From Hanstruepera neustonica (GTDB lineage: Bacteria; Bacteroidota; Bacteroidia; Flavobacteriales; Flavobacteriaceae): a stretch of DNA of 64,000 nt. This document shows, in pieces, positions 1 through 19,946 of this stretch. Position 1 is the stretch's first letter. Each line of letters begins with the position of its first letter. Below the pieces are notes generated by a model that was not told the origin of the DNA, made no database searches, and saw only the letters and a program-made list of their open reading frames with translations. Position numbers and translations under genes: made by a program. The stretch covers positions 248,001 through 312,000 of the forward strand of contig NZ_POWF01000001.1 in the NCBI RefSeq assembly GCF_002895005.1, read 5' to 3'.

Positions 1-1061
1 AAAATAACATGAGCAAATTTGCTTTGTAATTTCAGATTTTTTAGATAAATCATAAATGCTATTAAAAGGATTACAATTCCAAAAATGCCGTTTGTAAGAT
101 AAAACTCTATAGGTTGACTATGCGGATTAAATCCGTAGGTTCCTAAAGCGGCTTCTGAATAATTTTCTGCAAAATAAACATCCTTTTTATCCTTATAAAA
201 ATCGCCAATCCCTATTCCAAAATAATAACTTTGAGTTTTATCAACCGCTTCAAAAGTATTACTCCAAAGTTTTAATCTTGGCGATTTGTCATAATCCAGA
301 CTTCTTTGAAATTTGTTCAAAACACTTTTGTTAAATAACAAAAAGGTGGAAGATAATATAGCGATAGCAATAAATGATAAGACAAATTGTTTTCGTGAAA
401 AATGAGAGTACAAATAAAAACAAGCCGCCAAAAAATAGGAAATGTAAACTATTCGTGATGTGGTTAACACAATTGCAAGAGTAAATAATAATACAACCAA
501 CCATTTAAATAGCTTGTTAGAAATAATTTGATACTCAAGAACCGATAGGAGAGCAATTAAAACTAATACCCCAAAATAAGGGTGTTGTATGATTGTAATG
601 AAATGGACAAAATCAGTTTTAAATAAAATATCCTGATCAAAATACTTTACACCATTATAAAATGTCACACCACAAGCAATCAGAGAGGCAACAACCAATA
701 ATTTAAATCCATTTATAATCTGGGGTTTTTCGATTTTAAGGCTTAATAACATGAAAGGAACTACGATAATAGGTAGTCTTAAATTTAGATATCTTAACCC
801 ACTGATAATGGCTTCAGAATTAAAAAAGGAAATTACAGTTAACAAATACGGCACTACGCAAACCATGTATAATTTCCAATTAATTGCCTTCAAAGTGATT
901 TCACCATTAAGATATCCAATTACAAAGAATGCCCCAGCTATACCCAAGAGAATATTCGATAAAGCAAATGAAAAAAATGCCATGCTTAAATAGAGCATCA
1001 AAGTGACAAAAACGGCCTCGTTGAGGTTTATATTTTTTATAGTTTTGCCGACTGCTTTCAC
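1..1061 (-). CDS. O-antigen polymerase/ligase-like membrane protein (C-terminus cut by window edge)
   Basis: About 353 codons are visible and the reading frame is open to the left edge. The start is taken as GTG (1061-1059), which shares the bases GTGA with the stop of the upstream glycosyltransferase gene, a typical coupled start. The translation is strongly hydrophobic, with many membrane helices. In its last visible third a soluble stretch reads KLWSNTFEAVDKTQSYYFGIGIGD, followed after about 30 residues by NPHSQPIEF. That arrangement (a G-rich segment then NxHN/NPHS in the large periplasmic loop) is what Wzy_C/O-antigen ligase family proteins show. The role is therefore polymerising or ligating lipid-linked glycan at the periplasmic side of the inner membrane. 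It is the second such protein in the operon, so one may be the polymerase and the other the ligase. Which is which cannot be told from sequence alone. Confidence 0.75.
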   Translation of the reverse strand, partial: MKAVGKTIKNINLNEAVFVTLMLYLSMAFFSFALSNILLGIAGAFFVIGYLNGEITLKAINWKLYMVCVVPYLLTVISFFNSEAIISGLRYLNLRLPIIVVPFMLLSLKIEKPQIINGFKLLVVASLIACGVTFYNGVKYFDQDILFKTDFVHFITIIQHPYFGVLVLIALLSVLEYQIISNKLFKWLVVLLFTLAIVLTTSRIVYISYFLAACFYLYSHFSRKQFVLSFIAIAILSSTFLLFNKSVLNKFQRSLDYDKSPRLKLWSNTFEAVDKTQSYYFGIGIGDFYKDKKDVYFAENYSEAALGTYGFNPHSQPIEFYLTNGIFGIVILLIAFMIYLKNLKLQSKFAHVI

Positions 1062-2266
1062 TTTTCTAACAGTTTTTTATAAACCTTCAAAATTTTCTTT
1101 ATATGTATGTCCTTGGATAAATACTTAGAATAGTATTCCAAAATATTTTTCTTCATTTCTGATGTGGTAATTTTATCTATTTCTAGTAATTTAGTTTTTG
1201 CCTCCTCAAAATTAGAGAAATCTAACAGCCATCCTGTTTTACCATCATCAATTAAATCTTTAAACCCACTATGATTTGAACCTATTACAGGAGTGTTAAG
1301 TGCAAAGGATTCAATAATAGTCATTGGGCAATTTTCGAACCATTTTGAGGGTTGAATCACATATTTTGCCTCCTCTACAAAACCAAAAAGTTCTGAACCA
1401 TATTTCGGACCTACAAATTCAATATTATCAATAGATTTAATTTTCATTGCAACCTCATCCTCTAATGGACCTTTTCCAATTAAAACCAACCTAAATTGAG
1501 TATCCTTAAATAATTCAATAAGTTCGAGAACACCTTTTTCTTCTGAAATCCTGCCAAAGTACAAATAATAATTTTTGCTATTCACACCGCTGTTTGGATC
1601 AACAATATCAGTAAAATTAGGTATTACAGTAATGTCTTTCTTTATGCGTTTTTTAACTAGTTCTGCCAAAAAATTACTTGGGCTAATGTAAAAATCAATA
1701 TGTTTTTCATAATATCCCAAAGAATGATACAACATGCTCTCTGCTGCTCCAATAGTGCTTTTAAGAATAGAGCCATCAAAACACTTATCTTTTATACAGT
1801 TAAAAAAAGAGCCTTCTACACACTTTGTACAAACTTCATTTCTTTGAAAATTGAAAAGCCTGTGATAGGGGCATATCATCTGACTATCATGTATAGTCTG
1901 AACAATTGGGATTCGTCGTTTCTTTATTTCAGGAAGAATACTTGGAGATAGTTGAAAATTATAATTGTGTATATGAACAATATCGGGTTTAAAAGCGTCT
2001 AAAACTTTTCCTATTTTTTTTCTGTTGCTACTTGAATATATTGTTCCGGCAATAGATTTAACTTTAGCTATTGCTCCTTGTTTATTATAATCAACCGTGT
2101 CAGCCAAAAGTTCTTTAGGAAAATCATTCACATCATTATCATCAGCATGCATCCCCCAATATTTGACCTCAATGTTATTGTCTTTTAAGGCTTTGGAAAG
2201 TTGGAACATATAAGTTTCTGCTCCACCAACTGTTTTAAGAAATTTATTTATTTGTAATACTTTCAC
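1058..2266 (-). CDS. GT4-family glycosyltransferase
   Basis: This 402-residue protein has the two-Rossmann GT-B layout. The N-terminal motif KTVGGAETYMFQLSKAL (about residues 11-27) is the usual acceptor-side GGAE motif. The C-terminal half has YYLYFGRISEEKGVLELIE and the EX7E-type element CPMTIIESFALNTPVIGS, which bind the nucleotide sugar in GT4 enzymes. A cysteine cluster around residues 130-165 (CPYH, CTKC, C-x3-DKC) is common in capsule and O-antigen GT4 enzymes. It likely acts in the cytoplasm, adding one sugar to the lipid-linked repeat unit. It overlaps the upstream membrane protein gene by 23 bases and the downstream one by 4. The sugar donor cannot be deduced. Confidence 0.9.
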   Translation of the reverse strand: MKVLQINKFLKTVGGAETYMFQLSKALKDNNIEVKYWGMHADDNDVNDFPKELLADTVDYNKQGAIAKVKSIAGTIYSSSNRKKIGKVLDAFKPDIVHIHNYNFQLSPSILPEIKKRRIPIVQTIHDSQMICPYHRLFNFQRNEVCTKCVEGSFFNCIKDKCFDGSILKSTIGAAESMLYHSLGYYEKHIDFYISPSNFLAELVKKRIKKDITVIPNFTDIVDPNSGVNSKNYYLYFGRISEEKGVLELIELFKDTQFRLVLIGKGPLEDEVAMKIKSIDNIEFVGPKYGSELFGFVEEAKYVIQPSKWFENCPMTIIESFALNTPVIGSNHSGFKDLIDDGKTGWLLDFSNFEEAKTKLLEIDKITTSEMKKNILEYYSKYLSKDIHIKKILKVYKKLLEK

Positions 2267-3515
2267 GAGAATTGACAGTGTTCATTACCAACGCAAAATA
2301 AGCAAACATCACCACAGCTCTTTGTTGAGAAAATATGGAGTCAGATGTACTGTCTATTAATAACAGTAATAGTCCCAAAATTAAGCTCAAATGAGTAAAA
2401 TAAGATGTATTGGCGATATTTGATTTTACATTATTTAAAAATAGCATTAAATAATTATAAACTATAAAAAACATACTGATTAAACCAAAATATCCAAATT
2501 GCCCCAATACCATGGGCCAATATTGATCGGCTACAAAATTCCAATAGGATCTTTTTATGCCATATACATTACTGATACCATACAAATCATAAACCCATGA
2601 GTAATACGCACCCGAATAGTACGAAGAAAAGGTTCCAAATCCGGTACCTAAAGGAAAATAATCAAAGCCAATAATAAAACTATAATATAAAATCACTGCA
2701 CGAGACCAGGCCTCATCAATGTTTTCAAAAGAAAAATACAATTTAATTTTTTCTCTAAATAGAAATGCTAATACTGTTAATAACAATGCAATTGACCATA
2801 AAAAAACTGGTTTTGGTGTTTTAATTAGTTTTTTCCCTTGGAATAATAATATTATAACGAAAAAGACAAAGCCAAAATATTTGACTCTTAATGATAAAGC
2901 TCCAATGAATAACACAAAAAACAACAAACCAAGTCGTTGTTTTTGATATTTAGATAAAAGTAGAAGAAAAATAAATGAAAACGCGAAAGCATATCTCGAG
3001 GTATGCTTGAAAAACAATTCTATGGATTGAATACTAAACCTGTTTTCTCTGGGATAAATTTCAAATGCAATATCTAGAACAATAATAAAAACGAGAATAT
3101 AAAATGCCTTTTGGGCGTAACTAGTGATTTTATCTAATACTGTACTAGATGACATTGAGTCGCTCAAAAATCGAATTGCAAAATAAACAACAAAAGCTTT
3201 TGTCACGTTAATGGCATCTGCAAATATTGCGACAGCATTTGTGCAATACCCTTTATAACAAGTATAGGCATTTGAAAGAAATCCGATAAATATAATTAGG
3301 ATAAGCGACAGTATAATAAAATATTCTTTTCTAAATAACCTAAACCTCTGTTTGATGATTATTTGATAACTAATTACAAAGAAAGACAGCAATCCTAGAA
3401 ACTCATCAAAAAAACCAAGTAGCCTTGAGAAGGCGTCATACAAGAAAACTAAAAATAAAATAGCAAATATTAATATGCTTTCTATTAGACTTGACTTTTT
3501 TATTTTCAGAACCAT
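2244..3515 (-). CDS. O-antigen polymerase (Wzy)-like membrane protein
   Basis: This 423-residue, strongly hydrophobic protein has about ten predicted membrane helices starting around residue 14. A large extracytoplasmic loop lies around residues 280-350 (FPLGTGFGTFSSYYSG through WNFVADQYWPMVLGQFG). A GTGFG-type loop late in the protein is typical of the O-antigen polymerase/ligase superfamily, whose primary sequences are otherwise poorly conserved. Together with the flippase, sulfotransferases and glycosyltransferase around it, this suggests it polymerises the repeat unit on undecaprenyl-diphosphate in the periplasm. Its stop region overlaps the glycosyltransferase start by 23 bases. It could instead be the ligase, because a second superfamily member follows at the left edge. 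Confidence 0.75.
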   Translation of the reverse strand: MVLKIKKSSLIESILIFAILFLVFLYDAFSRLLGFFDEFLGLLSFFVISYQIIIKQRFRLFRKEYFIILSLILIIFIGFLSNAYTCYKGYCTNAVAIFADAINVTKAFVVYFAIRFLSDSMSSSTVLDKITSYAQKAFYILVFIIVLDIAFEIYPRENRFSIQSIELFFKHTSRYAFAFSFIFLLLLSKYQKQRLGLLFFVLFIGALSLRVKYFGFVFFVIILLFQGKKLIKTPKPVFLWSIALLLTVLAFLFREKIKLYFSFENIDEAWSRAVILYYSFIIGFDYFPLGTGFGTFSSYYSGAYYSWVYDLYGISNVYGIKRSYWNFVADQYWPMVLGQFGYFGLISMFFIVYNYLMLFLNNVKSNIANTSYFTHLSLILGLLLLLIDSTSDSIFSQQRAVVMFAYFALVMNTVNSRESITNK

Positions 3516-3536
3516 CTGTTATTGTTGTTTTCCAAA

Positions 3537-4544
3537 TCAATTATTATGCTCTGGCATATCACCCACTTTTATAGTCTTTGTAGCTTCACCTTTTCTTAAA
3601 GCTCTCCAAAAAGCTATTCTCACTTTTATTAATTCAATAAGTCTCTTGGGTAATCCAATCGCCAAATCAATACCCGTCCAAATGAAGGTTAATAGCTTTC
3701 TGTCATTCTTTATCAGATCATAATTATAATCTATAAGTGAATGTCCGGCCATAGCTTGATAAATTAGTTGTTCTTTTTTTGTCAAATTACGTTTCCATTT
3801 ATCAGTATTTTTATTGTCTATTGCCTTAAAAATTAGCTCTGAATGATGCTTTCCAATATATTTATTACTAGAAAGATGAAAGTCTATCATTGATTGTTCA
3901 AAATCAATTTTTAAAAAATCGCTAATTTCCTTGAGATGAAATTCTGGTTTTTGAACCAAATCTTCATATCTAATCAAATAAATTTTGTCTTTAGGTATTT
4001 TTCTTAATGAACGTTCTACTAAACCATGTTTTATCTTCCAGTCTAATGCCATTACCGCTGGATGCGATTTTGATGGGTCCATTTTACGCCAACTGTAAAA
4101 TACATCTCTCCCATCCCTTACTATATGAATAAATTTTGCTTTTGGAAACAAATCATAAAGTAATTCCATTGAGCCAAAAAACAAACTTTTATCTCCCCAT
4201 TTTTTCTTCTGTTCATGTTGAGCATAGGAAGAATATATGATTTCCATCAATTCTTTGACTGTTATGGATTTCTTTTCTGAAATAGCATTTAAAATATCTT
4301 TTTTGTCGAAATTCCATAATTGGAATTGTTCATTCTCTCTTAAATATGAAACTAATTTCTCTTTTTTTTTGCCTCTAATTTTCCGATTTACCCAACTTCT
4401 TTTTAGTATAGGTTTCAAGAAACTAGCCTCTTCTGGAATTGCTATTTCAGAATGTGCATTTAACAATAATCGCAAAAGTGTTGTTCCAGACCTCTGAACT
4501 CCAACTATAAAAAAAGGGATGTTATTGTTGCTTTCTATTTCCAA
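3537..4544 (-). CDS. PAPS-dependent sulfotransferase (Sulfotransfer_3-like)
   Basis: This 335-residue protein has the 5'-phosphosulfate loop near the N-terminus (PFFIVGVQRSGTTLLRLLL, residues 10-28) and the 3'-phosphate-binding element FIHIVRDGRDVFYSW (138-152). These are the two signature PAPS-binding elements of sulfotransferases. The family moves a sulfonate group from PAPS to a hydroxyl or amine, here presumably on a sugar of the glycan repeat. It overlaps the other sulfotransferase gene by 10 bases, and PAPS-making genes lie upstream in the same operon. No signal peptide is visible, so it probably acts in the cytoplasm before the unit is flipped. The accepting sugar is unknown. Confidence 0.92.
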   Translation of the reverse strand: MEIESNNNIPFFIVGVQRSGTTLLRLLLNAHSEIAIPEEASFLKPILKRSWVNRKIRGKKKEKLVSYLRENEQFQLWNFDKKDILNAISEKKSITVKELMEIIYSSYAQHEQKKKWGDKSLFFGSMELLYDLFPKAKFIHIVRDGRDVFYSWRKMDPSKSHPAVMALDWKIKHGLVERSLRKIPKDKIYLIRYEDLVQKPEFHLKEISDFLKIDFEQSMIDFHLSSNKYIGKHHSELIFKAIDNKNTDKWKRNLTKKEQLIYQAMAGHSLIDYNYDLIKNDRKLLTFIWTGIDLAIGLPKRLIELIKVRIAFWRALRKGEATKTIKVGDMPEHNN

Positions 4545-5440
4545 TTTTCGAGATTTCGATTCAATAATTTTTCTAATTTGACAATATCCTCTTTAAAAAA
4601 AGAATTTAAAAGTTTTTTTTCCTCTAAAAACTTAATGTTATCATTTTTTGTTAAAGACCCTGCTTTTTTGGGTTTAGTATTCCAGTTTAAAAAAGCTAAC
4701 TTTAAGTTTGTTCGTTTATGAACAGGTAAAATTGGATCAATAAATCTATCAATAAAAAACTTCTTAATATTGCTTTGGTTATATAATAAATTATGCATCC
4801 ATTTATGCTTTACTTCTCCTGTCACATTAACTTTCTTAAGCTCTGCTTTAAATTGTTCATCAACTTCCAAAAACCTAAAAATACTTTGCAATACATTATA
4901 CGGGTTCTCTTGCAAATCTTCATAAAATAATACCAGAACTTGATCTTTTTCGAATATTGAAAAAATATATTCTAACTGCTCTGCATATAACCCATGTGCC
5001 TTGTAGGTAAAGTTGTTTTTCTCTCTTTGACTTCCATTTGCTCTGTCTTTCTCTTTATACAATGCTTCCTTAAAAGAAAGTCTTTCTAAATTTAACTTTT
5101 TAAAATAATTGTAAGCTGAAATAGCTCTATCTGTCGGGTTTCGAAGTACGCAAATTAATTTTGCCTTGGGATTAAAAGAATATATGTTTTTTATTGCCTC
5201 TGGGTAAAACATATAATTCACATAGCCCTGAAGAATGATTTTTTGAAAATTGTATCCTTCTCTGTAATATTCTTTCTGAAAAGCCATGATTTCCTTTTTT
5301 GAATGATTGTTTTCTAAAAAAAAGGGATGGTCTTTTAAAGAACTTGGACCACAAATTTCAGGGTGTTGTGACATCCAATAATATAGCGAAGAAGTGGCAG
5401 CTTTTTGTGCTCCAATAATAAATGTATTCGGTTTTACCAT
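4535..5440 (-). CDS. PAPS-dependent sulfotransferase (heparan-type domain)
   Basis: This 301-residue protein begins almost at once with the phosphosulfate loop FIIGAQKAATSSLYYWMSQHP (7-27). It carries the 3'-phosphate element KLICVLRNPTDRAISAYNYF (94-113). KAATSSL and RNPxDRAxSxY are hallmarks of the Sulfotransfer_1 / heparan sulfate N- and O-sulfotransferase branch, a different branch from the neighbouring sulfotransferase. The pair therefore probably sulfates two different positions or sugars. The gene is 6 bases downstream of the flippase gene and overlaps the next sulfotransferase by 10 bases, so the three are almost surely translated together. Confidence 0.92.
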   Translation of the reverse strand: MVKPNTFIIGAQKAATSSLYYWMSQHPEICGPSSLKDHPFFLENNHSKKEIMAFQKEYYREGYNFQKIILQGYVNYMFYPEAIKNIYSFNPKAKLICVLRNPTDRAISAYNYFKKLNLERLSFKEALYKEKDRANGSQREKNNFTYKAHGLYAEQLEYIFSIFEKDQVLVLFYEDLQENPYNVLQSIFRFLEVDEQFKAELKKVNVTGEVKHKWMHNLLYNQSNIKKFFIDRFIDPILPVHKRTNLKLAFLNWNTKPKKAGSLTKNDNIKFLEEKKLLNSFFKEDIVKLEKLLNRNLENWK

Positions 5441-5446
5441 ATATCT

Positions 5447-6769
5447 TTAATGGAATGAAAAATAACTTTTAATTTTTAGTTTTTTCTTCAAATAAAAAGC
5501 CCCTGCTAAATTCCAAAAAGCAATACTAATCACAGTTGATATTGCAGCGCCTAAAGCCCCATAAACAGGGGTCAGTAAAAAATTTAACACTAAATTAATT
5601 ATAAGCGCAATAAAAACAATGTTTTGATATTTTTTTTGATAACCTGTCATTTGCAAAATTATCCCAACGGACCCTGAAAACGAATTTACTACCTGACCAA
5701 TGCATAAAATAATTAAAACTAGACTACCAGACACAAACGCATCGCCGAAGGTGCCTAAAATAAATCGATGAAAAATCAAAATTACAATTACTATTACGGT
5801 TGTTATAATAAAATTAAGTTTTGTAGAAAAGCGTATTAAATTTTCAAACTTATTCTTTTCATTGAGTTTATAATAAGTTGCTATTTTAGGGGCAAGGATA
5901 GAATTAATGGCCTGAAGTGAAAAACTTGTAATCATAGCAATTTTCAAAGCAACATTATAAACCCCTATCGTCTCATCTGATGCATATATTCCTAATACTA
6001 ATGTGTCAGACCATCCTAGAAATACTATAATGGCACCAGAAAACATCATTGGAATAGCATCTTTAATAAAAATCCAAGAATTTGAATTCGTTTTAAATCT
6101 TATATTCTCAAATTCTCTCATTACCAAATAGAAGCTATAAACTGCTAAAAAAAGAACACCAAAAAAATGCGCCCTTATAGCATTTAAGCTATCATTTGAT
6201 TGATAGATTAATAATATAAAGATTACAAGTGAAAACAAAAACCTCCCTGGGTTATTGAAAAAGGCAAATAAATTGTTCTTTTTAATAGATCTAAAAAACC
6301 CTGCACAAATCAAAACGACGGACCAAAAAGGAATGGTTAAGCACACCCAAAAAATATATGGGATTAATTGGGGCTTACCAAACAAGTCAACACAAATAAG
6401 ATTTTTAAAACCAAACAAAGTAATGGAAATTAGTGACGAGAAAATTATTGCCTTGAACAAAACTTTTAAAAATATTCCGGAATCAAAACTATTTTCCTCC
6501 AACGAGAAAAATGGTATCAAATTCATATCAATCCCCAATCGACCAAAAATACTCAAGCACATTAATAATGTAAAGCTTAATGAAACTAAACCATTAACTT
6601 CTGCTCCATATTCATGAGCGATAATATAAGTAAAAATATATCCAGCTATTATTCCTAAAACACGAAGTAGTAAAAAGTTAAATCCTTTGTCAACAATTTC
6701 TTTAAAGTCTTTGTCGAGTAGATTTTTATAGAAATTATAAAGTGTTTTGATAACCCTTTGAATTAAAAT
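5447..6769 (-). CDS. Wzx-type polysaccharide flippase with no canonical start codon
   Basis: The family is recognised by the many hydrophobic segments, a C-terminal helix pair (VFIALIINLVLNFLLTPVYGALGAAISTV) and MPM-type residues (AIPMMFSGAIIVFLGWSDTLVLG), as in MATE/Wzx polysaccharide exporters. The first in-frame ATG (6562) would remove the first helix. Upstream of it the same frame stays open and encodes a convincing N-terminus (DKDFKEIVDKGFNFLLLRVLGIIAGYIFTY) back to a stop just inside the preceding gene. No ATG, GTG or TTG is present in that stretch, so the start is probably ATT at 6769 or 6761-6763. I use 6769, giving about 440 residues, a normal Wzx length. It would flip the lipid-linked, probably sulfated repeat unit across the inner membrane. 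Confidence 0.8.
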   Translation of the reverse strand: MLIQRVIKTLYNFYKNLLDKDFKEIVDKGFNFLLLRVLGIIAGYIFTYIIAHEYGAEVNGLVSLSFTLLMCLSIFGRLGIDMNLIPFFSLEENSFDSGIFLKVLFKAIIFSSLISITLFGFKNLICVDLFGKPQLIPYIFWVCLTIPFWSVVLICAGFFRSIKKNNLFAFFNNPGRFLFSLVIFILLIYQSNDSLNAIRAHFFGVLFLAVYSFYLVMREFENIRFKTNSNSWIFIKDAIPMMFSGAIIVFLGWSDTLVLGIYASDETIGVYNVALKIAMITSFSLQAINSILAPKIATYYKLNEKNKFENLIRFSTKLNFIITTVIVIVILIFHRFILGTFGDAFVSGSLVLIILCIGQVVNSFSGSVGIILQMTGYQKKYQNIVFIALIINLVLNFLLTPVYGALGAAISTVISIAFWNLAGAFYLKKKLKIKSYFSFH

Positions 6770-6771
6770 AT

Positions 6772-7305
6772 TTAATTACCTTCTTTTTGTAATAGCTTAT
6801 TAATAAGTATTCTTTTAGCAGATATTACGGGGTTGTGCTTATTGTCAACCTTCTTGGTTTCAATAGTAAAATTGTCTTTTTTGAATGAAACAAACTTGTT
6901 ATAGCGCATAAACTCATCAAAATTATTAGCATCAACAACTATCGATTTTTGACCATACTTGAAGGTAATAAAATTAAATTCAACCTCCTTCTCTTTCTTG
7001 CCAAGATTAATTAGAATAAAATTTGAGATGTTTTTGTTACCAAAATTTGCCTTGAGTTTTTCAAATCCTGTTGAGGGCGGAATAGCTTCTACTATTTGAA
7101 TATTTTTTTTCTGAAATTCGTCTACCTCAATATTATTTACCAATACCTTAAAATCATCTTCAACCGATGTTTTTAACTCAAGAACAATTTCAAAATCTTC
7201 TTTTGTTTCTAATTTTTGAGGCTCAATTTCTGGAGCCTTATTGTTTCTAGCACAAGAAAATAGCACCAATGTTATTATAAAGACTGTGATTCTATTCATA
7301 ATCAT
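6772..7305 (-). CDS. Orphan lipoprotein in the polysaccharide operon
   Basis: This 177-residue protein has a clear lipoprotein signal: MIMNRITVF, a short hydrophobic run, then the lipobox LFSC at about residues 15-18, so it should be lipid-anchored. The rest is soluble, rich in Lys, Asn and Phe, and probably beta-rich. I recognise no family. It starts 3 bases after cysN and ends 2 bases before the flippase frame, so it belongs to the operon. A role in surface glycan export or anchoring is only inferred from position. The initiator could be Met1 or Met3. Confidence 0.75.
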   Translation of the reverse strand: MIMNRITVFIITLVLFSCARNNKAPEIEPQKLETKEDFEIVLELKTSVEDDFKVLVNNIEVDEFQKKNIQIVEAIPPSTGFEKLKANFGNKNISNFILINLGKKEKEVEFNFITFKYGQKSIVVDANNFDEFMRYNKFVSFKKDNFTIETKKVDNKHNPVISAKRILINKLLQKEGN

Positions 7306-7308
7306 AAA

Positions 7309-8562: not shown

Positions 8563-8578
8563 GATAATTTTAAATGAG

Positions 8579-8610
8579 ATACTGAATCCTTCGAAACTTC
8601 GGTACAGTAT
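8579..8610. repeat. Small imperfect inverted repeat in the cysD-cysN gap
   Basis: The 66-base gap holds an inverted repeat with outer arms ATACTG (8579-8584) and CAGTAT (8605-8610) and a partly paired interior containing TTCGAA. A loosely similar TTCC...CGGAAC hairpin occurs upstream of rnr near 46160-46190. It could be a small REP-like palindrome or an mRNA processing/stability structure between cysD and cysN. No T-run follows it, so it is not a classical terminator. Confidence 0.3.
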
Positions 8611-8628
8611 TACAATTAATAAATTTGA

Positions 8629-9534
8629 TTAAAAATACCCTTGTCGCTTTCTGTCTTCCATCGCAGATTCCGAGCGCTTGTCATCGCTACGGTTACCACG
8701 TTCTGTTTGACGCATACCAGAAACTTCATCAGCTATCTTTTCCAAAGTATCGGCATCAGATTCAATACCACCTGTAATGGTAATATCGCCTAAAGTTCTG
8801 AAGCGAATTTTTTTGGTGACTATTTCTTCGTGATCTTCTAAAACGAGAAACTCGGAATTCGGAATCCAAGATTCTTGGCGCCAAACCACCTCGCGCTCAT
8901 GAGCAAAATACAATGATGGAATCGCTATATTCTCTCTTTTGATGTAATTCCAAACATCCATTTCGGTCCAATTACTTATTGGGAAAGCCCTAAAATGTTC
9001 GCCCTCAAAATGTTTGCCGTTGAAAATATTCCACAATTCTGGTCGTTGATTTTTAGGATCCCATTGCCCGAAATCATCCCTATGCGAAAAAAAGCGTTCT
9101 TTGGCTCTTGCTTTTTCTTCATCACGACGTCCACCGCCAATAGCACAATCTATTTTATTGGCTTCAATGGCATCTAATAACGTTGTAATTTGTAAAGCAT
9201 TTCTTGTGGCATTTTTACCGCGTTCTTCCGCAACACGACCTTCATCAATAGATTCCTGAACAGAACCCACAATTAATTGAACACCTAATTCCTTGATGAT
9301 ATCGTCCCGAAACTGGATAGTTTCTGGGAAATTATGGCCTGTATCCACATGCATTAAAGGAAATGGTATTTTTGCTGGATAAAAAGCTTTTTTAGCCAAG
9401 TGTGTTACCAATATGGAATCCTTTCCTCCAGAAAATAAAATTACAGGGTTATCAAATTGTGCCCATACTTCTCGCAAGACAAAAATGGCCTCGCTTTCTA
9501 ATTCGTCTAAATAATTTAAATAATACTTACTCAT
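8629..9534 (-). CDS. cysD: Sulfate adenylyltransferase, small subunit
   Basis: This 301-residue ATP-pyrophosphatase of the PAPS-reductase/CysD fold has the PP-loop FSGGKDS (34-40). It ends with the conserved tail RKRQGYF, typical of CysD. It forms the catalytic half of ATP sulfurylase together with CysN. The start overlaps the end of cysC by 8 bases, so the two are translationally coupled. The gene is full length with no visible oddity. Confidence 0.97.
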   Translation of the reverse strand: MSKYYLNYLDELESEAIFVLREVWAQFDNPVILFSGGKDSILVTHLAKKAFYPAKIPFPLMHVDTGHNFPETIQFRDDIIKELGVQLIVGSVQESIDEGRVAEERGKNATRNALQITTLLDAIEANKIDCAIGGGRRDEEKARAKERFFSHRDDFGQWDPKNQRPELWNIFNGKHFEGEHFRAFPISNWTEMDVWNYIKRENIAIPSLYFAHEREVVWRQESWIPNSEFLVLEDHEEIVTKKIRFRTLGDITITGGIESDADTLEKIADEVSGMRQTERGNRSDDKRSESAMEDRKRQGYF

Positions 9535-10129
9535 TTTCGAGCTGTAATTTTGGTCTTATGTAATCTAATATCTGCTTTACGGCTTGTTCAACAGATACGT
9601 CTTCTGTTTTGATTTCAATATCCGGATTTTCAGGTGCCTCATAAGGGGCTGAAATTCCAGTCATGTTTTTTATTTCACCAGCACGAGCTTTCTTATATAA
9701 ACCCTTTACATCGCGGCGCTCACATTCTTCTACGCTGGTGTTGATATAAATCTCAACAAAGTTAACATCTTTGACGATACTTTTAATGTTATCTCGGTCT
9801 TTTTTGTAAGGTGACACAAAGGCTGCTAAGGTGACAATACCTGCATCAACCATTAGATTAGCCACTTCAGCAATTCGTCTGATGTTTTCCGTTCTGTCTT
9901 TTGGTGTAAACGTTAAATCATTATTGATGCCTTTTCTAATATTATCGCCATCCAAAGTATAGGTGTTTATTCCTTGTTTAAACAATTCCTGCTCAACAAC
10001 ATTGGCTATTGTTGATTTTCCAGACCCAGAAAGGCCTGTAAACCATAACAAAAAAGAATTGTGATTTTTTGCCTTCTGTCTATCTTCTTTTGAAATTTGA
10101 TAATCGTGAGGAATAATATTGTCTTTCAT
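9527..10129 (-). CDS. cysC: Adenylyl-sulfate (APS) kinase
   Basis: This 200-residue P-loop kinase has Walker A GLSGSGKST (32-40). The following DGDNIRKGIN and RRIAEVANLMVDAGIVTLAAFVSPY segments are diagnostic of APS kinase. It phosphorylates APS to PAPS, the universal sulfonate donor. It sits 5 bases after the DUF2061 gene and overlaps cysD by 8 bases. Family length is about 200 residues, so it is complete. Confidence 0.97.
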   Translation of the reverse strand: MKDNIIPHDYQISKEDRQKAKNHNSFLLWFTGLSGSGKSTIANVVEQELFKQGINTYTLDGDNIRKGINNDLTFTPKDRTENIRRIAEVANLMVDAGIVTLAAFVSPYKKDRDNIKSIVKDVNFVEIYINTSVEECERRDVKGLYKKARAGEIKNMTGISAPYEAPENPDIEIKTEDVSVEQAVKQILDYIRPKLQLENE

Positions 10130-10134
10130 GATTT

Positions 10135-10560
10135 CTATTTATTTCTGTCTGATAGGCCATAATTAATTCTATACCAAACACGTTCATGCAGATAATACAA
10201 TAGCATTTTTGTTATCACTTCTGCCAGACCTATTTTAAGACCTGTCAACGGATTTCCCGTTACTATCCATGCCAATGTCATAGTATCTATGGTTCCAACC
10301 AATCGCCATGTAACTGTTTTGGCTATATGCCTTTTGTTACTTTCTAAAACTTTTCCGTCTTTGGTCAAATTCACCCTAAACCACAATCGTTCATGGAGAT
10401 AATATAATAACATTTTTGTGATGACCTCATAAACACCTATTTGAAGACCTATAAAGGGATCGCCAGAAAGAATCCATGACAAAACAATAGTGTCCAGTGT
10501 TCCAACCAATCGCCAAGTAATAGTTTTTGCAATATGCCTTTTATGCGAAGCTGCTGCCAT
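10135..10560 (-). CDS. Tandem DUF2061 membrane protein
   Basis: This 141-residue protein is built from two copies of the same unit of about 60 residues. Each copy begins KRHIAKT(I/V)TWRLVGT and ends ITKMLLYYLHER(L/V)W(F/Y)R. This is the DUF2061 signature, a small membrane-associated domain with no settled function. It lies 2 bases after cysQ and 5 bases before cysC, inside the PAPS cassette. DUF2061 proteins are often encoded beside sulfate-activation genes, which suggests a part in sulfate or PAPS handling, but that is inference. The internal duplication gives about four short hydrophobic segments. Confidence 0.9.
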   Translation of the reverse strand: MAAASHKRHIAKTITWRLVGTLDTIVLSWILSGDPFIGLQIGVYEVITKMLLYYLHERLWFRVNLTKDGKVLESNKRHIAKTVTWRLVGTIDTMTLAWIVTGNPLTGLKIGLAEVITKMLLYYLHERVWYRINYGLSDRNK

Positions 10561-10562
10561 AC

Positions 10563-11360
10563 CTATTTACTCACAAGAAAATAACTATTTAATAAATTTT
10601 CTTTGTTATAGCTTAAAGATTTGTTGGTTTCTTTCGAAATGACCTGTATGCCAACTGCATTGCAAATGGCATGACCAGCAGCGGTGTCCCATTCCATCGT
10701 TGGGGCGTACCTTGGGTAAACATCTGCGTTTCCTTCAGCCACTAGACAGAACTTTAATGAGCTGCCTTTAGAAACTATTTCAACTGACTTACCAGAATTT
10801 TTTATTTGATCTATAAAATCTAAAGTTTCTTGATTCATGTGTGAACGACTTCCAACTACTTGAATCGTTTCCGATTTCGAGTTTTTGGGCTGTAATGTAT
10901 TAGAATTTTTAAAAACTTCATCAATACTTGAGTCATGAGAGTTTAACTCCGCTTTATAGGCTTTGCCTTCGCTAACAACAGCATAATACAAAATCTTACT
11001 TGCTGGCACATAAATCACTCCCATTATAGGAGCGCCTTTTTTCACATAGGCAATGTTAACGGTGAACTCACCATTTCTTTTTATAAACTCTTTGGTGCCA
11101 TCAACAGGGTCAACAACCCAGCAATCATTCCATTGTTTTCTTTCACTGTAATCTATTTGCTTGTTTTCTTCACTAATAATTGGAATGTCAGTTTTTATTA
11201 AATAAGAATTAATAACATCATTTGCATTTTTATCGGCTTCAGTTAGAGGTGATTTATCATCCTTTAATTCTACATTAAAAGTTGTATCGTAAACCTGCAT
11301 GATTGCTTTTCCTGCTTTTAGTGCCGCTTCGATGGCTATTGTTAAGTTTTTTTTATTCAT
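10563..11360 (-). CDS. cysQ: 3'(2'),5'-bisphosphate nucleotidase
   Basis: This 265-residue member of the inositol-monophosphatase-like superfamily has the metal-binding motif WVVDPVDGTKEF (81-92) and the second signature WDTAAGHAI (224-232). It dephosphorylates PAP, the by-product of sulfotransferases, to AMP and so relieves product inhibition. Its start overlaps the end of rmlD by 8 bases, linking the rhamnose and sulfate halves of the operon. The combination cysQ-cysC-cysD-cysN is a full PAPS make-and-recycle set. Confidence 0.95.
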   Translation of the reverse strand: MNKKNLTIAIEAALKAGKAIMQVYDTTFNVELKDDKSPLTEADKNANDVINSYLIKTDIPIISEENKQIDYSERKQWNDCWVVDPVDGTKEFIKRNGEFTVNIAYVKKGAPIMGVIYVPASKILYYAVVSEGKAYKAELNSHDSSIDEVFKNSNTLQPKNSKSETIQVVGSRSHMNQETLDFIDQIKNSGKSVEIVSKGSSLKFCLVAEGNADVYPRYAPTMEWDTAAGHAICNAVGIQVISKETNKSLSYNKENLLNSYFLVSK

Positions 11361-12210
11361 TTAGTTTTGATATGGCTTTTGTTAAGCTTGTTTTCCAATT
11401 TTCTATATTAAATCCTAATGTGTTTTCAATCTTACTGGTGTCCATGACACTATAACTTGGTCTTTTGGCATCAGTCTTAAAATCAGTTGAAGGGATGGGC
11501 TTTACATTAATATTTCTTCCTGCCAACTCAAATATTTTTTTGGCAAAACCATACCATGATGTTTCTCCTTTATTGCAAAAATGGTAAAGTCCATAATCGT
11601 CTATGTTATTTTTTATAATGTACATAACAACATCGGCCAGGTCTTTGGCATATGTTGGTGATCCTATTTGGTCATCAACAACGCTAATCTCACTCCTGGT
11701 TTCGGATAGTTTCAACATGGTTTTCATAAAATTTCTTCTATGCTCCGAATACAGCCAACTGGTTCTAATTACATAATGTTCTTTTAGGGTTTCGCTAATT
11801 TTCTGCTCTCCTTTTAATTTGGAAAGTCCGTAAACATTTATGGGATTTGTGATATCTGTTTCTTTGTAGGGTACTTTTTTGCTTCCGTCAAAAACAAAAT
11901 CAGTTGAAATATGGATTAGTTTTATGTTGTTGTTATTGCAAGCTATTGCCAAATTTTCTGCCCCCTTCTCATTGACCTCAAATGCTTTTTGTTGCTCTGA
12001 TTCCGCTAGGTCAACATTTGTATAAGCTGCACAGTTAATGCACCAGTCTATATTGTTTTGGCCAAAAAAACTATTTGTTTTTTCAGAATTGGTAATATCG
12101 AGTTTGGAATGGTCGGCAAAAATAAAGTTAATTTCAGGATAATTGGTTTCAAGATCTCTAATGCATTCTCCTAATTGACCTCCGGATCCTGAAACTAAAA
12201 CTGTTTTCAT
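11353..12210 (-). CDS. rmlD: dTDP-4-dehydrorhamnose reductase
   Basis: This 285-residue extended SDR enzyme has an N-terminal Rossmann glycine motif GSGGQLG (8-14) and the catalytic YGLSK (127-131, Tyr-x3-Lys). ISTDFVFDGS precedes it, as in RmlD. It catalyses the last step of dTDP-L-rhamnose synthesis using NAD(P)H. It follows rmlC by 25 bases and overlaps cysQ by 8 bases. It is full length and unremarkable. Confidence 0.96.
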   Translation of the reverse strand: MKTVLVSGSGGQLGECIRDLETNYPEINFIFADHSKLDITNSEKTNSFFGQNNIDWCINCAAYTNVDLAESEQQKAFEVNEKGAENLAIACNNNNIKLIHISTDFVFDGSKKVPYKETDITNPINVYGLSKLKGEQKISETLKEHYVIRTSWLYSEHRRNFMKTMLKLSETRSEISVVDDQIGSPTYAKDLADVVMYIIKNNIDDYGLYHFCNKGETSWYGFAKKIFELAGRNINVKPIPSTDFKTDAKRPSYSVMDTSKIENTLGFNIENWKTSLTKAISKLNE

Positions 12211-12235
12211 AGAGTTTGGTTGAAATTTATATCAG

Positions 12236-12784
12236 TTAATTGATTTCGGCTAACTTTAAAACAGGTAATTCTAAATCTTTGTCTGAAATTATTAGGCTTT
12301 CTTTAGGCAACTTCCAATCAATATTTAAATTAGGATCATTAAACAAAATTCCTCTTTCCGAAAGTTTATCATAATAATTATCACACTTGTAAGAAAAAAT
12401 AGCGGTTTCGCTCAAAACAACAAAACCATGAGCAAATCCTCTAGGTACAAAAAACTGCTTTTTGTTTTCTTCTGACAACAAAACAGATACGTGCTCACCA
12501 AAAGTAGCTGAATTCTCTCTAATATCAACTGCTACATCAAGTACACTCCCTTTTATGACCCTCACTAATTTAGCTTGAGCATGATTCCCGATTTGATAAT
12601 GCAATCCTCTTAAAACACCCTTTGTTGAAAATGATTCATTATCTTGAACAAAGTTGACATCAAGCCCTGTGAGGTCATAAAATTTTTCTTTGTTAAAAGA
12701 TTCAAAAAAATAACCCCTTTTATCTTCAAAAATTTTAGGCTCAATTTCAAAAGAGCCTTTTAGTTTTGTTTCTTTAATATTCAT
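12236..12784 (-). CDS. rmlC: dTDP-4-dehydrorhamnose 3,5-epimerase
   Basis: This 182-residue cupin carries GVLRGLHYQ (catalytic His about 62), [19 protein letters not shown] with the conserved Lys and Asp, and [10 protein letters not shown]. All are diagnostic of RmlC. It epimerises C3 and C5 of dTDP-4-keto-6-deoxyglucose. Its ATG overlaps the end of rmlA by 4 bases (ATGA type), so the two are translationally coupled. Confidence 0.97.
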
Positions 12785-13650
12785 TTTCTTGAATTCAATA
12801 ATCCTAAAAGATTTTTGCCATAACCACTTTTAAGTAAAGGCGTGGCTAAATCTTTAAATTGTTCTGGTGTAATATAACCCATTTCAAATGCAGCCGCCTC
12901 AATTGATCCTATTTTGAGGCCTTGCCGCTCTTCAATTACTTCAATAAATTGAGAAGCTTGCATGAGAGATTGAAATGTTCCCGTGTCAAGCCAGGCTGTT
13001 CCTCTATCTAATATACTTACACTTAATTTACCTTGCGATAAATAAGCCTTGTTTACATCGGTTATTTCAAGTTCTCCCCTATGACTTGGTTTAATATTCT
13101 TGGCAATTTCAACAACAGAATTATCATAAAAATAGATACCTGGAACAGCAAAATTGGATTTAGGTTTTTTGGGTTTTTCTTCAATTGATATGGCTTGTCC
13201 CTCTTTATCAAACTCGACAACTCCGTACCGTTCAGGATCATGGACCCGGTAGGCATAAATAATTCCACCTATTGGATCGTTATTGCTTTGTAAAAGTTTT
13301 GCAAGTCCTGTTCCGTAAAAAATATTATCGCCTAATATTAATGCTACTTTTTCATTACCAATGAAGTCAGCCCCAATAATAAATGCTTCTGCAAGCCCAT
13401 TTGGGTTTTCTTGCACAGCAAATTCAAACTGACAGCCATATTTGCTTCCATCCCCTAATAAGTCCTTGAACAAGGGTAAATCCTTTGGTGTTGATATAAT
13501 TAAAATCTCACGGATTCCAGAATACATAAGTGTTGAAAGCGGATAATAAATCATAGGTTTATCATAAATAGGCATCAACTGCTTACTTATAGATAACGTT
13601 AACGGGTGTAGCCTTGTTCCTGATCCTCCTGCTAGTATAATTCCTTTCAT
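12781..13650 (-). CDS. rmlA: Glucose-1-phosphate thymidylyltransferase
   Basis: This 289-residue nucleotidyltransferase starts with the signature [11 protein letters not shown] (8-18) followed by [17 protein letters not shown]. It contains ILGDNIFYG and the [18 protein letters not shown] region typical of RmlA. It activates glucose-1-phosphate with dTTP, the entry step to dTDP-L-rhamnose. It overlaps rmlB and rmlC by 4 bases each. The length matches the family. Confidence 0.97.
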
Positions 13651-14717
13651 TCTTTGTATTGTTTTTCATAATAGGACTGGTAGGCACCAGAAGTTACGTT
13701 CTCTAGCCAATCTTTGTTTTCTAAATACCAGTCAATTGTTTTTGACAATCCTTGTTCGAACGTAACCGAAGGCTCCCAACCTAATTCCTTGTTTATTTTG
13801 TTGGCGTCTATCGCATATCGTAAATCATGCCCTGGCCTATCTTTAACGTAAGTTATCAATTTCTCTGAAGTTCCATTTTTTCGGTTTAACTTGACATCCA
13901 TTTGTTGACAAAGCAATTTTACTAAATTAATGTTCTTCCACTCATTAAACCCGCCAATATTATAAGTTTCTGCATTTTCTCCTTTATGAAAAACCAAGTC
14001 TATTGCTTGAGCATGGTCTTGAACATACAGCCAATCTCTGGTATAGTTTCCATCTCCATAGACAGGAAGTGGTTTATTGTTCAAAATATTGTTAATGAAC
14101 AGCGGTATTAGTTTTTCGGGAAATTGATTCTCCCCATAGTTGTTGGAACAATTAGAAATAACATATGGAATCCCATATGTTTCTCCATAGGCTCTAACAA
14201 AGTGGTCCGAGCTTGCTTTGGATGCAGAATAAGGAGAGTTAGGGTCATAGGGAGTAGTTTCTTTAAATAATCCTGTCTCCCCTAAAGTTCCATAAACCTC
14301 ATCAGTGCTTATGTGATAAAATCTTTTATCGGCAAAATTGTCTTTCCATAAATTTTTAAAGGCATTCAGTAAAACCATAGTTCCAATCACATTAGTTTTT
14401 ACAAACGCCAAAGGATCTGTAATGGATCTATCCACATGAGATTCGGCTGCTAAATGAATAACCCCATCAAACCTATATTGGTCAAACAATTTATTGATTT
14501 CTGATTCGTTTGTAATATCTGTTTTTAGAAAAGTATAATTTGCGCTTTTTTCAACATCTTTGAGATTCTCAAGATTCCCCGCATAGGTTAAAGAGTCTAA
14601 ATTGTAGATGTGATAATCTGGATAACTATTTAAAAATAATCTTACAACATGAGAGCCAATAAAACCCGCTCCTCCGGTTATTAAAATTGATTTTTTATGC
14701 TTCATATTGAACGACAA
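13647..14717 (-). CDS. rmlB: dTDP-glucose 4,6-dehydratase
   Basis: This extended SDR enzyme of up to 356 residues has the NAD-binding GGAGFIGSH (15-23), the active-site STDEVYG (137-143) and YSASK (163-167), all as in RmlB. It makes dTDP-4-keto-6-deoxyglucose. The long form starts inside the 3' end of the Wzz-like gene (23-base overlap). A second in-frame ATG at 14705 ([12 protein letters not shown]) gives a more usual N-terminus and is equally likely. It is the first of the four rml genes in transcription order. Confidence 0.96.
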
Positions 14718-15753
14718 ATCGAACTAGTTTTCTTGTTAAATAAATAATACACAACAACACAAATCCAAGTGCTGGCAAAACAACTTTATATCTTTGATAC
14801 CATTCCAAATCTATTTTACCTACTTGTTGAAAACTTGATATTACATCAAAAAACACATCTTCCTCAACTTTTTGTTTATCAAGTTCTTTAAGTTCGTTTC
14901 TCAATCTAATTTCAGTATTTAAAAGTTCAAACTCCCTAGTTTGTGTTTTGTCCTTGTTTAAGGTTAGTCCCTCTCCGCCAATTGTTATTTCGGTTGGAGC
15001 TGTTCTGGACTCTTCTTCAAGCACCTTTATGTAGACATCTTGCAAAGAAGCCACTTCTTCCAACTGCTGCATTATGTTTTGTTTCTGAATGGTTATAAGA
15101 GAATCTCTTTTTTTCATCTTTTTTTCAGAATATTTGTTTGTAAAAGACCCGTTCAAGCCTTCTTCTAGCTTTGGGAAAATATCTTTTTTTGATGAATAAA
15201 CTTTTATTTCAAATAAATCTCCAGCATATATGCTTCGGTTTTCAATGAAATCTTCAAAAGTTATTTTTACTGCTCTAGTGCTATCAATTGATTTTAAAAA
15301 GTTTTCGTATTGTATTAATCTCTCATTTTCGGTTTCTGGCCCAGGGCTTATTTCAAAACTTGAGATTTGCTCAACTTCATCTTCTTGTAAATTAAAAACA
15401 TTGGAAAGTATCCCATATTCTTCATTTTCAATCAAAGCATTGTAGTAATCTATGGTGTTAACCAACTGATATTTTGAATCAAAATACGGTTTAACCAACA
15501 TGCTTGAAGAATATAGTTTGGGCTTAAATTTATCTAATGCGTACCCTAGAATACCTGCAATCAATATGGTTATTACAATAATCTTAAAATTTACAATGAT
15601 CGGTTTAATAGTAAATATCACTAAAGAGAAAAGACTCTTTAATATTGAATAAACAAACTTAATTAAGCGATCAAAAGCTTTGCCTATCATTTTAAATAGC
15701 TGGCCTAAATCTACCTCATCATTGGTATTTAGGGGTTGTTTGTTATCGTTCAT
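14695..15753 (-). CDS. Wzz-like chain-length determinant protein
   Basis: This 352-residue protein has hydrophobic segments near residues 33-49 and 57-72 and a C-terminal membrane helix near 325-343 (VVLPALGFVLLCIIYLTRKLV). Between them lies a long, charged, coiled-coil-rich periplasmic part. Two membrane anchors bracketing a helical periplasmic domain is the polysaccharide co-polymerase (Wzz/GNVR) layout. No kinase domain follows, unlike tyrosine-kinase-linked Wzc proteins. It would set the polymer length made by the Wzy-like protein downstream. It is the first gene of the polysaccharide operon proper and lies 7 bases after the nucleoside-phosphorylase-like gene. Confidence 0.75.
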   Translation of the reverse strand: MNDNKQPLNTNDEVDLGQLFKMIGKAFDRLIKFVYSILKSLFSLVIFTIKPIIVNFKIIVITILIAGILGYALDKFKPKLYSSSMLVKPYFDSKYQLVNTIDYYNALIENEEYGILSNVFNLQEDEVEQISSFEISPGPETENERLIQYENFLKSIDSTRAVKITFEDFIENRSIYAGDLFEIKVYSSKKDIFPKLEEGLNGSFTNKYSEKKMKKRDSLITIQKQNIMQQLEEVASLQDVYIKVLEEESRTAPTEITIGGEGLTLNKDKTQTREFELLNTEIRLRNELKELDKQKVEEDVFFDVISSFQQVGKIDLEWYQRYKVVLPALGFVLLCIIYLTRKLVRFVVQYEA

Positions 15754-15760
15754 ATATGAG

Positions 15761-17455: not shown

Positions 17456-17483
17456 AGAAAAATTTTAGTCCCCAAATATACTA

Positions 17484-18986: not shown

Positions 18987-19855
18987 TAATTAAAATCTAT
19001 GAAATTTGTTGGATTAATTGGGTAGCCATTACTCCAAAGTTCAAAATGTAGATGTGGTCCCGTTGTCAATTCTCCAGTATTACCGGTTGTGGCAATAACT
19101 TCTCCTGCCAAAACTAAATCGCCTTGTGATTTTGTTAAAAGTGCATTATGCTTATAAACTGATATCAAGCCTTGACTATGTTCCAATATCATCACGTATC
19201 CTGCTTCAGTGGTCCACTCTGCAAAAATTACTGTTCCATCTGCTGTTGCCTTTACAGGCGTATCACTTTCAGTTACAATATCAACTGCAAAATGTTTTTC
19301 TTTGGCGTCGTATTCTTGAGAAATAGAACCTTTAACTGGCGGAAACAAAATAAAGCTAGAACTTAATTTAGCTGATTCAAACAAGTTATACTTGTCTTCC
19401 TTTTTTACTTTTTCGCGTAAAATAGAATCTTCTCTAATGGGTGTTAAATTGATGTTTTTAGCTTCAATTTTGGTGGCTTCAATTATGGAATCTCTATTGA
19501 AATCAACCGTGCTTACCTCGCCATAAAGAACTTTTTTTATGGAAGAAAAATACTGTTCGTTTACAGCAATGACTTGTTGTAAAGAATCTGTTTTATAATT
19601 TAATTCCGTAGCACGTTTTTTTAATTCAGTAGATGAATAGCCTGGAATATATTCTCTCAAGGGTGTGAACGCTATTAGAATGGTTGTTGCAACAATCAGG
19701 AAAATGGAAAGCAAGGACATTAAAACAAAAACGTTAAGCCTGGTTAGTTTAAGTGACAAGCGTTCCTCAAAAGTGTCCTCGTTTAAAATGACCAAACGAT
19801 ATTTGTTCAGTAATTTTTTAGTAAACTTTTTTGGCTTCTTTTTGGTTTTGCTCAT
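18986..19855 (-). CDS. M23 (LytM-type) metallopeptidase, membrane-anchored
   Basis: This is a 289-residue protein when started at ATG 19855 (MSKTKKKPKKF). A longer frame begins at 19906, but a TAATTTTG promoter box at 19871-19864 lies inside that extension, so the short start is preferred. A basic N-terminus leads to one membrane helix (about 36-58) and a coiled stretch. The C-terminal M23 domain has H-x3-D in KHFAVDIV and the second zinc site GPHLHFELW. It should cut or scaffold peptidoglycan in the periplasm. Both metal motifs are complete, so it is probably active. GH3 follows with a one-base overlap. Confidence 0.93.
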   Translation of the reverse strand: MSKTKKKPKKFTKKLLNKYRLVILNEDTFEERLSLKLTRLNVFVLMSLLSIFLIVATTILIAFTPLREYIPGYSSTELKKRATELNYKTDSLQQVIAVNEQYFSSIKKVLYGEVSTVDFNRDSIIEATKIEAKNINLTPIREDSILREKVKKEDKYNLFESAKLSSSFILFPPVKGSISQEYDAKEKHFAVDIVTESDTPVKATADGTVIFAEWTTEAGYVMILEHSQGLISVYKHNALLTKSQGDLVLAGEVIATTGNTGELTTGPHLHFELWSNGYPINPTNFIDFN

Positions 19856-19863
19856 AAGTCTTA

Positions 19864-19871: not shown

Positions 19872-19946
19872 AATAAAATTATGTCATCACTTGTTTCACT
19901 TAACACTAAAGTTAGGGATTAAACGCTGTTATTAAAGTTTAATTAT

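Follow-up and report, generated by a model that had tools for sequence, protein, structure and literature searches.

A probable operon for a sulfated surface glycan in Hanstruepera neustonica, with a sulfate-activation module and a DUF2061 membrane protein

A sulfate-activation module in a polysaccharide operon

Why does a run of polysaccharide genes carry its own genes for sulfate activation? The question is raised by a stretch of 64,000 nucleotides from the Flavobacteriaceae member Hanstruepera neustonica (assembly GCF_002895005.1, contig NZ_POWF01000001.1, positions 248,001 to 312,000; the window). Here cysD, cysN and cysC, encoding ATP sulfurylase and adenosine 5'-phosphosulfate (APS) kinase, sit between the rml genes for dTDP-rhamnose and the flippase gene wzx, within a nearly gapless run of polysaccharide genes on the minus strand (3-15753). 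We consider it highly probable that this is a Wzx/Wzy-type operon with a built-in sulfate-activation module, serving a sulfated, probably rhamnose-containing surface glycan. The flux through the module, the sulfation of the glycan, its rhamnose and the role of a small DUF2061 membrane protein are what we infer from the genes.

The module is read entirely from the minus strand. It begins with cysQ for 3'-phosphoadenosine 5'-phosphate (PAP) phosphatase (10563-11360; TIGR01331, 261 bits, cut-off 229) and the gene of the DUF2061 membrane protein, which has two tandem domains (10135-10560; two stretches of PF09834, E 3e-44, 149.5 bits, cut-off 23.1). There follow cysC, or apsK, for APS kinase (9527-10129; TIGR00455, 255 bits, cut-off 139), cysD for the small subunit of ATP sulfurylase (8629-9534; TIGR02039, 409 bits, cut-off 397), placed by its tree in the clade called S-type below, and cysN for the large subunit, a protein of 417 aa without a fused APS kinase (7309-8562; TIGR02034, 563 bits, cut-off 336; PRK05124, 596 bits, cut-off 590). 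All four Cys proteins, like the four Rml proteins, exceed curated NCBIfam cut-offs. Two sulfotransferase genes lie further downstream on the same strand, one of the heparan-sulfate-NST/3-OST-like branch (sulfotransferase 1, 4535-5440; PF00685, 69.5 bits) and one of the Sulfotransfer_3 branch (sulfotransferase 2, 3537-4544; PF13469, 122 bits). Both are over their Pfam cut-offs, which bears out an earlier first-pass annotation of this DNA that had assigned them to different branches. The closest entry to sulfotransferase 1 in the PDB is 3rnl (E 1e-33), followed by NDST and 3-OST.

The host genome (3.05 Mb in 16 contigs, 99.99% complete) gave a single PF01507 match, which is the operon cysD, so it has no CysH of that family and no second cysD. 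Nor was there any PF01077 (NIR_SIR) match in the whole genome, a profile that gave a match in 11 of 14 control genomes. The first-pass annotation had noted the lack of a reductase for 3'-phosphoadenosine 5'-phosphosulfate (PAPS) and of a sulfite reductase within the window, and this is true of the whole genome. A cysH gene just beyond the left edge, which had been named as a point to check, was looked for in the 19-kb left flank and rejected, the flank holding an AXE1-like hydrolase gene and then opposite-strand genes. PAPS is thus left without a reductive outlet that we could find. The case is also a warning against reading an ability to grow on sulfate from cysDN genes.

In the pathway that we propose, CysD and CysN would convert sulfate to APS and CysC would convert APS to PAPS, from which the two sulfotransferases would sulfate a repeat unit, probably with L-rhamnose, that is lipid-linked and still in the cytosol. 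CysQ would remove the by-product PAP, and Wzx would flip the sulfated unit for polymerisation at the surface. No secretion signal is seen in the first residues of either sulfotransferase, and by reading both start almost at the PAPS-binding loop, which fits cytosolic sulfation before flipping; the earlier idea that PAPS serves a lipid-linked unit at this stage is supported as an interpretation predicted from genes. The DUF2061 protein would be the membrane partner of the module, by importing sulfate or by anchoring APS-handling enzymes. Since no reductive branch was found, the module should not feed cysteine synthesis.

The genome holds nine PF00685 matches over the cut-off, the highest number among 120 genomes of the family (the next are 7 and 6). 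Two are in the operon, while contigs C3, C10 and C9 carry four, two and one, and six of the seven outside the operon lie in two other glycan-type clusters. The operon cysD being the only one, the module presumably also supplies these seven. The region on C3 (26000-64000; loci L011 and L012) is a second large glycan-type region, with its four matches and an apparent ABC-2 export pair; the third cluster, on C10 (32000-50000; L013), has two sulfotransferase matches, a flippase-like protein and, by reading, an asparagine-synthase-like gene. The match on C9 (L014 7636-10227) is an 863-aa protein that joins a phosphodiesterase/sulfatase-like domain, TPR repeats and a sulfotransferase domain; it is one of sixteen PF00685 rows in the 120 genomes whose open frames measure 843-887 aa, in some cases with internal stops.

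Two types of cysDN operon in the family

The family sample consisted of 120 Flavobacteriaceae genomes, evenly drawn with one per genus. Among the matches listed (for DUF2061, down to about E 2e-14), cysD was found in 98 genomes, DUF2061 in 95, APS kinase in 63, NIR_SIR in 57 and PF00685 in 51. Each of the 57 NIR_SIR genomes has a frame of about 690-730 aa, the size of sulfite reductase here. A sulfotransferase match is present in 50 of the 63 genomes with cysC and in one of the 57 without it (Fisher 3.8e-20); there is no significant link with sulfite reductase (20 of 57 genomes with it, 31 of 63 without it, p 0.14). The genome lists behind these joint counts were copied by hand from the search results. 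Given APS kinase in 63 of 120 genomes, 50 of them with a sulfotransferase match, the earlier remark that sulfated surface glycans are uncommon does not apply to the Flavobacteriaceae.

About 20 kb were fetched around each of 100 cysD matches and these, with the window, made 101 loci; G022 (a fragment) and G057 (8% contamination) were left out, and loci truncated by contig ends, such as L076, L098, L113, L130 and L140, were retained. A locus with cysC near cysD was called S-type and one with cysH and/or the sulfite reductase gene (SiR) near cysD was called A-type. By these definitions 55 loci are S-type, 44 are A-type, two are neither (L068 and L108) and none is both, cysC being missing from all 44 A-type loci and cysH and SiR from all 55 S-type loci. 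Sulfotransferase genes were found in 33 of the 55 S-type loci and in none of the 44 A-type loci, these labels and the cys labels coming from custom profiles, not Pfam, with a less sensitive profile for the sulfotransferases. The same gene order as in H. neustonica was proposed as something to look for in other Flavobacteriaceae and it was found in many, with rml-cysQ-DUF2061-cysCDN recurring in named relatives such as Meridianimaribacter, Xanthomarina and Winogradskyella. Five genomes (G032, G080, G082, G084 and G102) have both cysD types, one copy each. In eight genomes cysC occurs without an S-type cysD, seven of these having A-type cysDN and G055 lacking any cysD; their cysC genes were read in L227, L228, L233-L237 and L266.

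The two types are also separate in a CysD tree, of which the bootstrap had not settled and in which L068 is a long branch. A branch (100/87) sets the 44 A-type rows apart from all others; the 55 S-type rows, together with the unclassified L108, stand on a 100/99 branch. The type label changes once on the tree for A and twice for S, against 33-34 changes in shuffles. A further tree with outgroups, built from a hand-picked subset of 13 of the 44 A rows and 14 of the 55 S rows, gave S and A (with three rows of the same class and L068) as neighbouring groups, and with two actinobacterial rows next. Both groups are apart from the CysD proteins of E. coli, S. meliloti pSymA, Vibrio, Azospirillum and Phocaeicola, and the same-phylum rows L255 and L258 fall far outside. 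In rhizobia, sulfation is served by the ATP sulfurylase NodP/NodQ. The CysD-like protein of S. meliloti pSymA, which its record leaves unannotated and which is presumably NodP, clusters with E. coli CysD and outside the S-type clade. The best CysD match in the plasmid collection, with 60% identity, was from Nonomuraea (L272 3085-7148), where the gene lies between CysQ-like and sulfotransferase-like genes and beside a sugar transferase-like gene.

DUF2061 and sulfate activation

DUF2061 accompanies both types of operon, in different forms. In A-type loci it stands before cysH with one domain in 43 of 44 cases; the remaining locus, L076, stops at a contig end, and that genome carries its DUF2061 gene beside cysH on a different contig (L231). 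The S-type loci have it before cysC in 51 of 55 cases, 48 of them with two domain motifs and 3 with a single one. DUF2061 was considered as a marker of sulfation only, and this is ruled out by its place before cysH in A-type operons; it therefore follows sulfate activation in general. By genome, DUF2061 is present in 94 of the 98 with cysD and in one of the 22 without, among the matches listed; the single case is G112, a genome of 64% completeness in which DUF2061 adjoins cysH. Where cysC is apart from cysDN (n=8), DUF2061 is beside two of the genes (L227 and L266) and not beside those of L228 and L233-L237. An extra copy in G025 (L229) lies between genes reading as methionine synthase and homoserine sulfhydrylase, and in G022 (L232) DUF2061 precedes cysQ on a stretch with no cysC.

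In the GTDB collection, the best 80 relatives are all beside cysC, 79 of them also with cysD, although these were chosen by likeness to the two-domain form and are not an independent sample. A phylum sample had DUF2061 in 22 of 198 genomes; 11 of the 18 newly fetched loci are cys-linked and seven are not, and four of those seven score below 50 bits. In one genome (G257) DUF2061 is fused to APS kinase (L257 7365-8087, minus strand; PF09834 at residues 10-61 and PF01583 at 72-218, both over their cut-offs). A second, separate cysC adjoins the fusion gene.

The AlphaFold2 model of the window protein (pLDDT 87.5) has four long helices, at residues 2-32, 35-62, 75-101 and 104-131. The invariant residues of the first half (R8, K12, R17, T24, E45, K49, H56, E57 and W60) are matched one by one in the second (R77, K81, R86, T93, E114, K118, H125, E126 and W129). 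No solved relative was found in the PDB by sequence (E <= 1) or by fold (E <= 0.001).

In the Flavobacteriaceae, DUF2061 occupies the place between cysQ and cysC that elsewhere belongs to an SLC13 permease. A search of the open reading frames of the collected loci for SLC13 and SulP (two proteins for each) gave one match, SLC13-like, in L133, which is one of the four S-type loci that lack DUF2061; in the remaining three, the stretch holds neither kind of gene. The L133 case, with an SLC13-like protein in place of DUF2061, is suggestive but no proof. Against sulfate uptake by DUF2061 are its very small size, the iron, regulator and stress contexts of its published mentions elsewhere, and the SulP-family proteins of the genome, two in number, one of which adjoins a gene reading as carbonic anhydrase; one CitMHS protein is also over its cut-off and Na_sulph_symp gave no match in the genome. 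We note that cysC of E. coli K-12 is followed directly downstream by ygbE (DUF3561; L267 5015-5338), the gene of a further small and little-known membrane protein next to APS kinase.

DUF2061 is most likely a membrane component of sulfate activation, possibly for sulfate uptake, a transport role being suggested by position and by one fusion. A fuller proposal, which we hold with somewhat less than even confidence, is that DUF2061 would be an unrecognised component of this kind, a small helical-hairpin protein, single in cysH operons and duplicated in cysC operons, that would either import sulfate in a compact form of transporter or dock the enzymes handling APS at the membrane. It would replace the SLC13 permeases in the Flavobacteriaceae, and the family would maintain two ATP sulfurylases of separate descent, the first supplying cysteine synthesis and the second the sulfation of surface sugars.

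Alternative explanations

Several observations weigh against a module devoted to the sulfation of this glycan. Among the 55 S-type genomes, 22 have sulfite reductase and 33 do not, and 17 of the 22 are without an A-type cysD, so that S-type CysDN cannot be for sulfation only everywhere. Eight of these 17 (L238-L245) have cysH-SiR-cobA without cysDN within about 8 kb, and there S-type CysDN presumably serves both uses. The nearest CysD kin of the window (G045, G029 and G028) are among the 17, which suggests that the host genome lost its reductive branch. In addition, 13 of the 63 genomes with cysC have no PF00685 match at E 1e-5. The split is thus one of operons and CysD lineages, and not strictly one of genomes. 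The relatives that have cysH-SiR elsewhere without adjoining cysDN could also be taken to mean ordinary assimilatory sulfate reduction, with the cys genes of H. neustonica serving cysteine synthesis and standing in a glycan cluster by chance. This is highly improbable and is largely refuted here by the host genome, which lacks a second PF01507 protein and a sulfite reductase, and by the CysC and CysQ genes of the operon, cysC being absent from every A-type locus. The acceptor leaves more room for doubt. The nearest PDB entries to sulfotransferase 2 are the polyketide synthase sulfotransferases 4gox and 4gbm, followed by tyrosylprotein sulfotransferases, that is polyketide and protein enzymes and not glycan enzymes. 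A similar Bacteroides thetaiotaomicron cluster, Bt_0411-0416, alike in its proposed sulfate importer, PAPS genes and sulfotransferase, is reported to make cholesterol sulfate (PMC9417993), and with the kinship of sulfotransferase 2 this means that the acceptor could be something else. PAPS might then mainly sulfate a lipid, a sterol-like molecule, a protein or the glycans of C3 and C10, where most of the further PF00685 matches are, and the place of the module would be no more than a convenient rml/wzz site. We think this unlikely, since both sulfotransferase genes lie in the interval from wzx to the wzy-like genes, with overlaps or very short gaps to their neighbours, and since several relatives likewise have a wzx-sulfotransferase pair next to S-type cysDN. 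A sulfated surface glycan remains the reading that we prefer.

For DUF2061 the alternative is a hitch-hiking neighbour with an unrelated membrane function, which is doubtful but a serious possibility. It would account for the seven of 18 phylum-sample loci without profiled cys genes nearby and for the separate cysC genes, only two of eight of which adjoin DUF2061; no solved fold resembles the protein, and the two SulP-family permeases could import sulfate. Papers on Caulobacter, Shewanella and Pseudomonas place DUF2061 in iron, regulator and stress contexts, and a link to sulfate was not found in the passages of those papers that were available. A mere neighbour would not be expected to follow cysD so closely among the matches listed in 120 genomes, nor to occur with one domain beside cysH and mostly two beside the cysC of S-type operons, nor to be fused to APS kinase in G257.

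Comparison with known systems

Clusters in which PAPS feeds the synthesis of a sulfated glycan are already known, and the closest parallels come from Vibrio sp. KMM 8419 and Cobetia marina KMM 1449. Both strains are reported to have sulfated L-rhamnose capsule polymers that were shown chemically (PMC11641403, PMC11766843), and the Vibrio authors regard PAPS genes with sulfotransferases as a hallmark of sulfated polysaccharide synthesis (PMC11641403). Both share with H. neustonica the dTDP-rhamnose genes, cysD, cysN, cysC and sulfotransferases, and Cobetia shares cysQ as well. Unlike these strains, which export by a Kps ABC transporter, H. neustonica has a Wzx flippase and DUF2061, and its sulfation is predicted from genes; the flippase route and DUF2061 are what is new against the known clusters. 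Cobetia further differs by a bifunctional CysN/CysC, CysC being separate here, and by having a gene for a sulfate permease within the PAPS region (PMC11766843).

Closer to the module itself, Phocaeicola massiliensis (OY725991.1; L270) has the order cysQ, membrane protein, cysC, cysD, cysN and sulfotransferase; unlike here, the membrane protein is an SLC13-type permease and the Phocaeicola CysD groups with E. coli CysD and not with the S-type. A V. europaeus plasmid with cysD-cysN-permease-cysC likewise has a membrane protein gene directly upstream of cysC, this permease being SLC13 and not DUF2061. For V. vulnificus cysDNTC, PAPS production is reported to be required for rugosity, and the operon to serve cysteine synthesis too (PMC6113621). 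The flavobacterial A-type operon DUF2061-cysH-cysD-cysN-SiR-cobA resembles the window in its homologous CysD and CysN and its upstream DUF2061, and differs in that the window has cysC and cysQ instead of cysH and SiR, a two-domain DUF2061 and a CysD of a separate clade. Among the matches listed from the open-licence PMC literature, no PAPS-fed glycan operon is described in Flavobacteriaceae, and among those from the open-licence literature nothing relevant was found on sulfated glycans of these genera.

Layout of the operon and its flanks

The first-pass annotation described a tightly packed operon on a single strand, and this is confirmed by profile matches and spacings: neighbouring genes range from a 23-base overlap to a 25-base gap, with cysD-cysN (66) as the exception. 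The genes that it named were recovered, and two others, for DUF2061 and for a lipoprotein-like protein, had been missed. All genes of the run are on the minus strand. The first encodes a Wzz-like chain-length protein (14695-15753), where the earlier name holds as a resemblance to PF02706 and the match is below the cut-off (E 0.0055, 17.4 bits, cut-off 25.5); its homologs adjoin AMP nucleosidase in relatives. It is followed by rmlB for dTDP-glucose 4,6-dehydratase (13647-14717; TIGR01181, 470 bits, cut-off 365), rmlA for glucose-1-phosphate thymidylyltransferase (12781-13650; TIGR01207, 460 bits, cut-off 361), rmlC for dTDP-4-dehydrorhamnose 3,5-epimerase (12236-12784; TIGR01221, 242 bits, cut-off 156) and rmlD for dTDP-4-dehydrorhamnose reductase (11353-12210; TIGR01214, 319 bits, cut-off 224).

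Between cysN and the flippase gene lies that of the lipoprotein-like protein of 177 aa (6772-7305), a fast-changing protein for which AlphaFold2 predicts a beta-sandwich (pLDDT 81.6). It has no Pfam or NCBIfam family and no PDB match by fold at E <= 0.001; the best fold relative (E 4.6e-3, TM-score 0.36) was not used. Homologs with only 18-44% identity follow cysN in 12 of 80 named loci. In the gene of the Wzx-type flippase (5447-6769; PF01943, E 4e-17 for the frame 5447-6772), none of the codons ATG, GTG and TTG occurs ahead of codon 371, counted from the end of the frame; the frame is open upstream, and the nearest homologs have 433-434 aa; its start is probably an ATT at 6769-6767, about 10 bases past AGAAGG (6761-6790, minus strand).

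Of the two proteins called polymerase- or ligase-like before, one, a Wzy_C or O-antigen ligase-like protein that crosses the left edge, passes Pfam (3-1061; PF04932, E 2e-17; L002 18878-19900), and the other, a multi-spanning protein (2244-3515), has no match in Pfam or NCBIfam and resembles Wzy only in its anatomy. A GT4 glycosyltransferase gene is between them (1058-2266; PF00534 and PF13439, both over cut-off). To the left of the window, the AXE1-like hydrolase gene overlaps the Wzy_C gene and extends the cluster, and beyond it are plus-strand GT4, radical SAM and acetyltransferase-like genes. About 4-8 kb from the edge, on the minus strand, are Ugd, a UDP-glucuronate-decarboxylase-like gene and a WcaJ-like initiating phosphoglycosyltransferase (L002 10970-12328, outside the window; over the cut-off for TIGR03025, and 410.7 against 410.75 for TIGR03023); the names of the flank GT4, Ugd, decarboxylase and acetyltransferase are by reading of the sequence. 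The Wzx/Wzy pathway is thus represented by a flippase and an initiating transferase identified by profile, and for polymerase and ligase by one PF04932 protein and one family-less protein. A scan of 6000-21000 found 45 promoter-like sites (shuffle mean 60.2) and 8 terminator-like sites (8.0 in shuffles), no better than shuffles, and therefore no operon border is claimed.

Implications for the Flavobacteriaceae

Marine flavobacteria have been studied mostly as degraders of sulfated algal polysaccharides. With APS kinase and a sulfotransferase match together in 50 of 120 genomes, and an S-type ATP sulfurylase in 55 of 120, many flavobacteria may instead make sulfated molecules. As leads from this work we regard DUF2061 and, with it, the division of CysD into sulfation-linked and reduction-linked lineages as the freshest. 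DUF2061 gains a concrete context that can be tested, and the combination of S-type cysD, cysC and two-domain DUF2061 can serve as a proxy in the search for producers.

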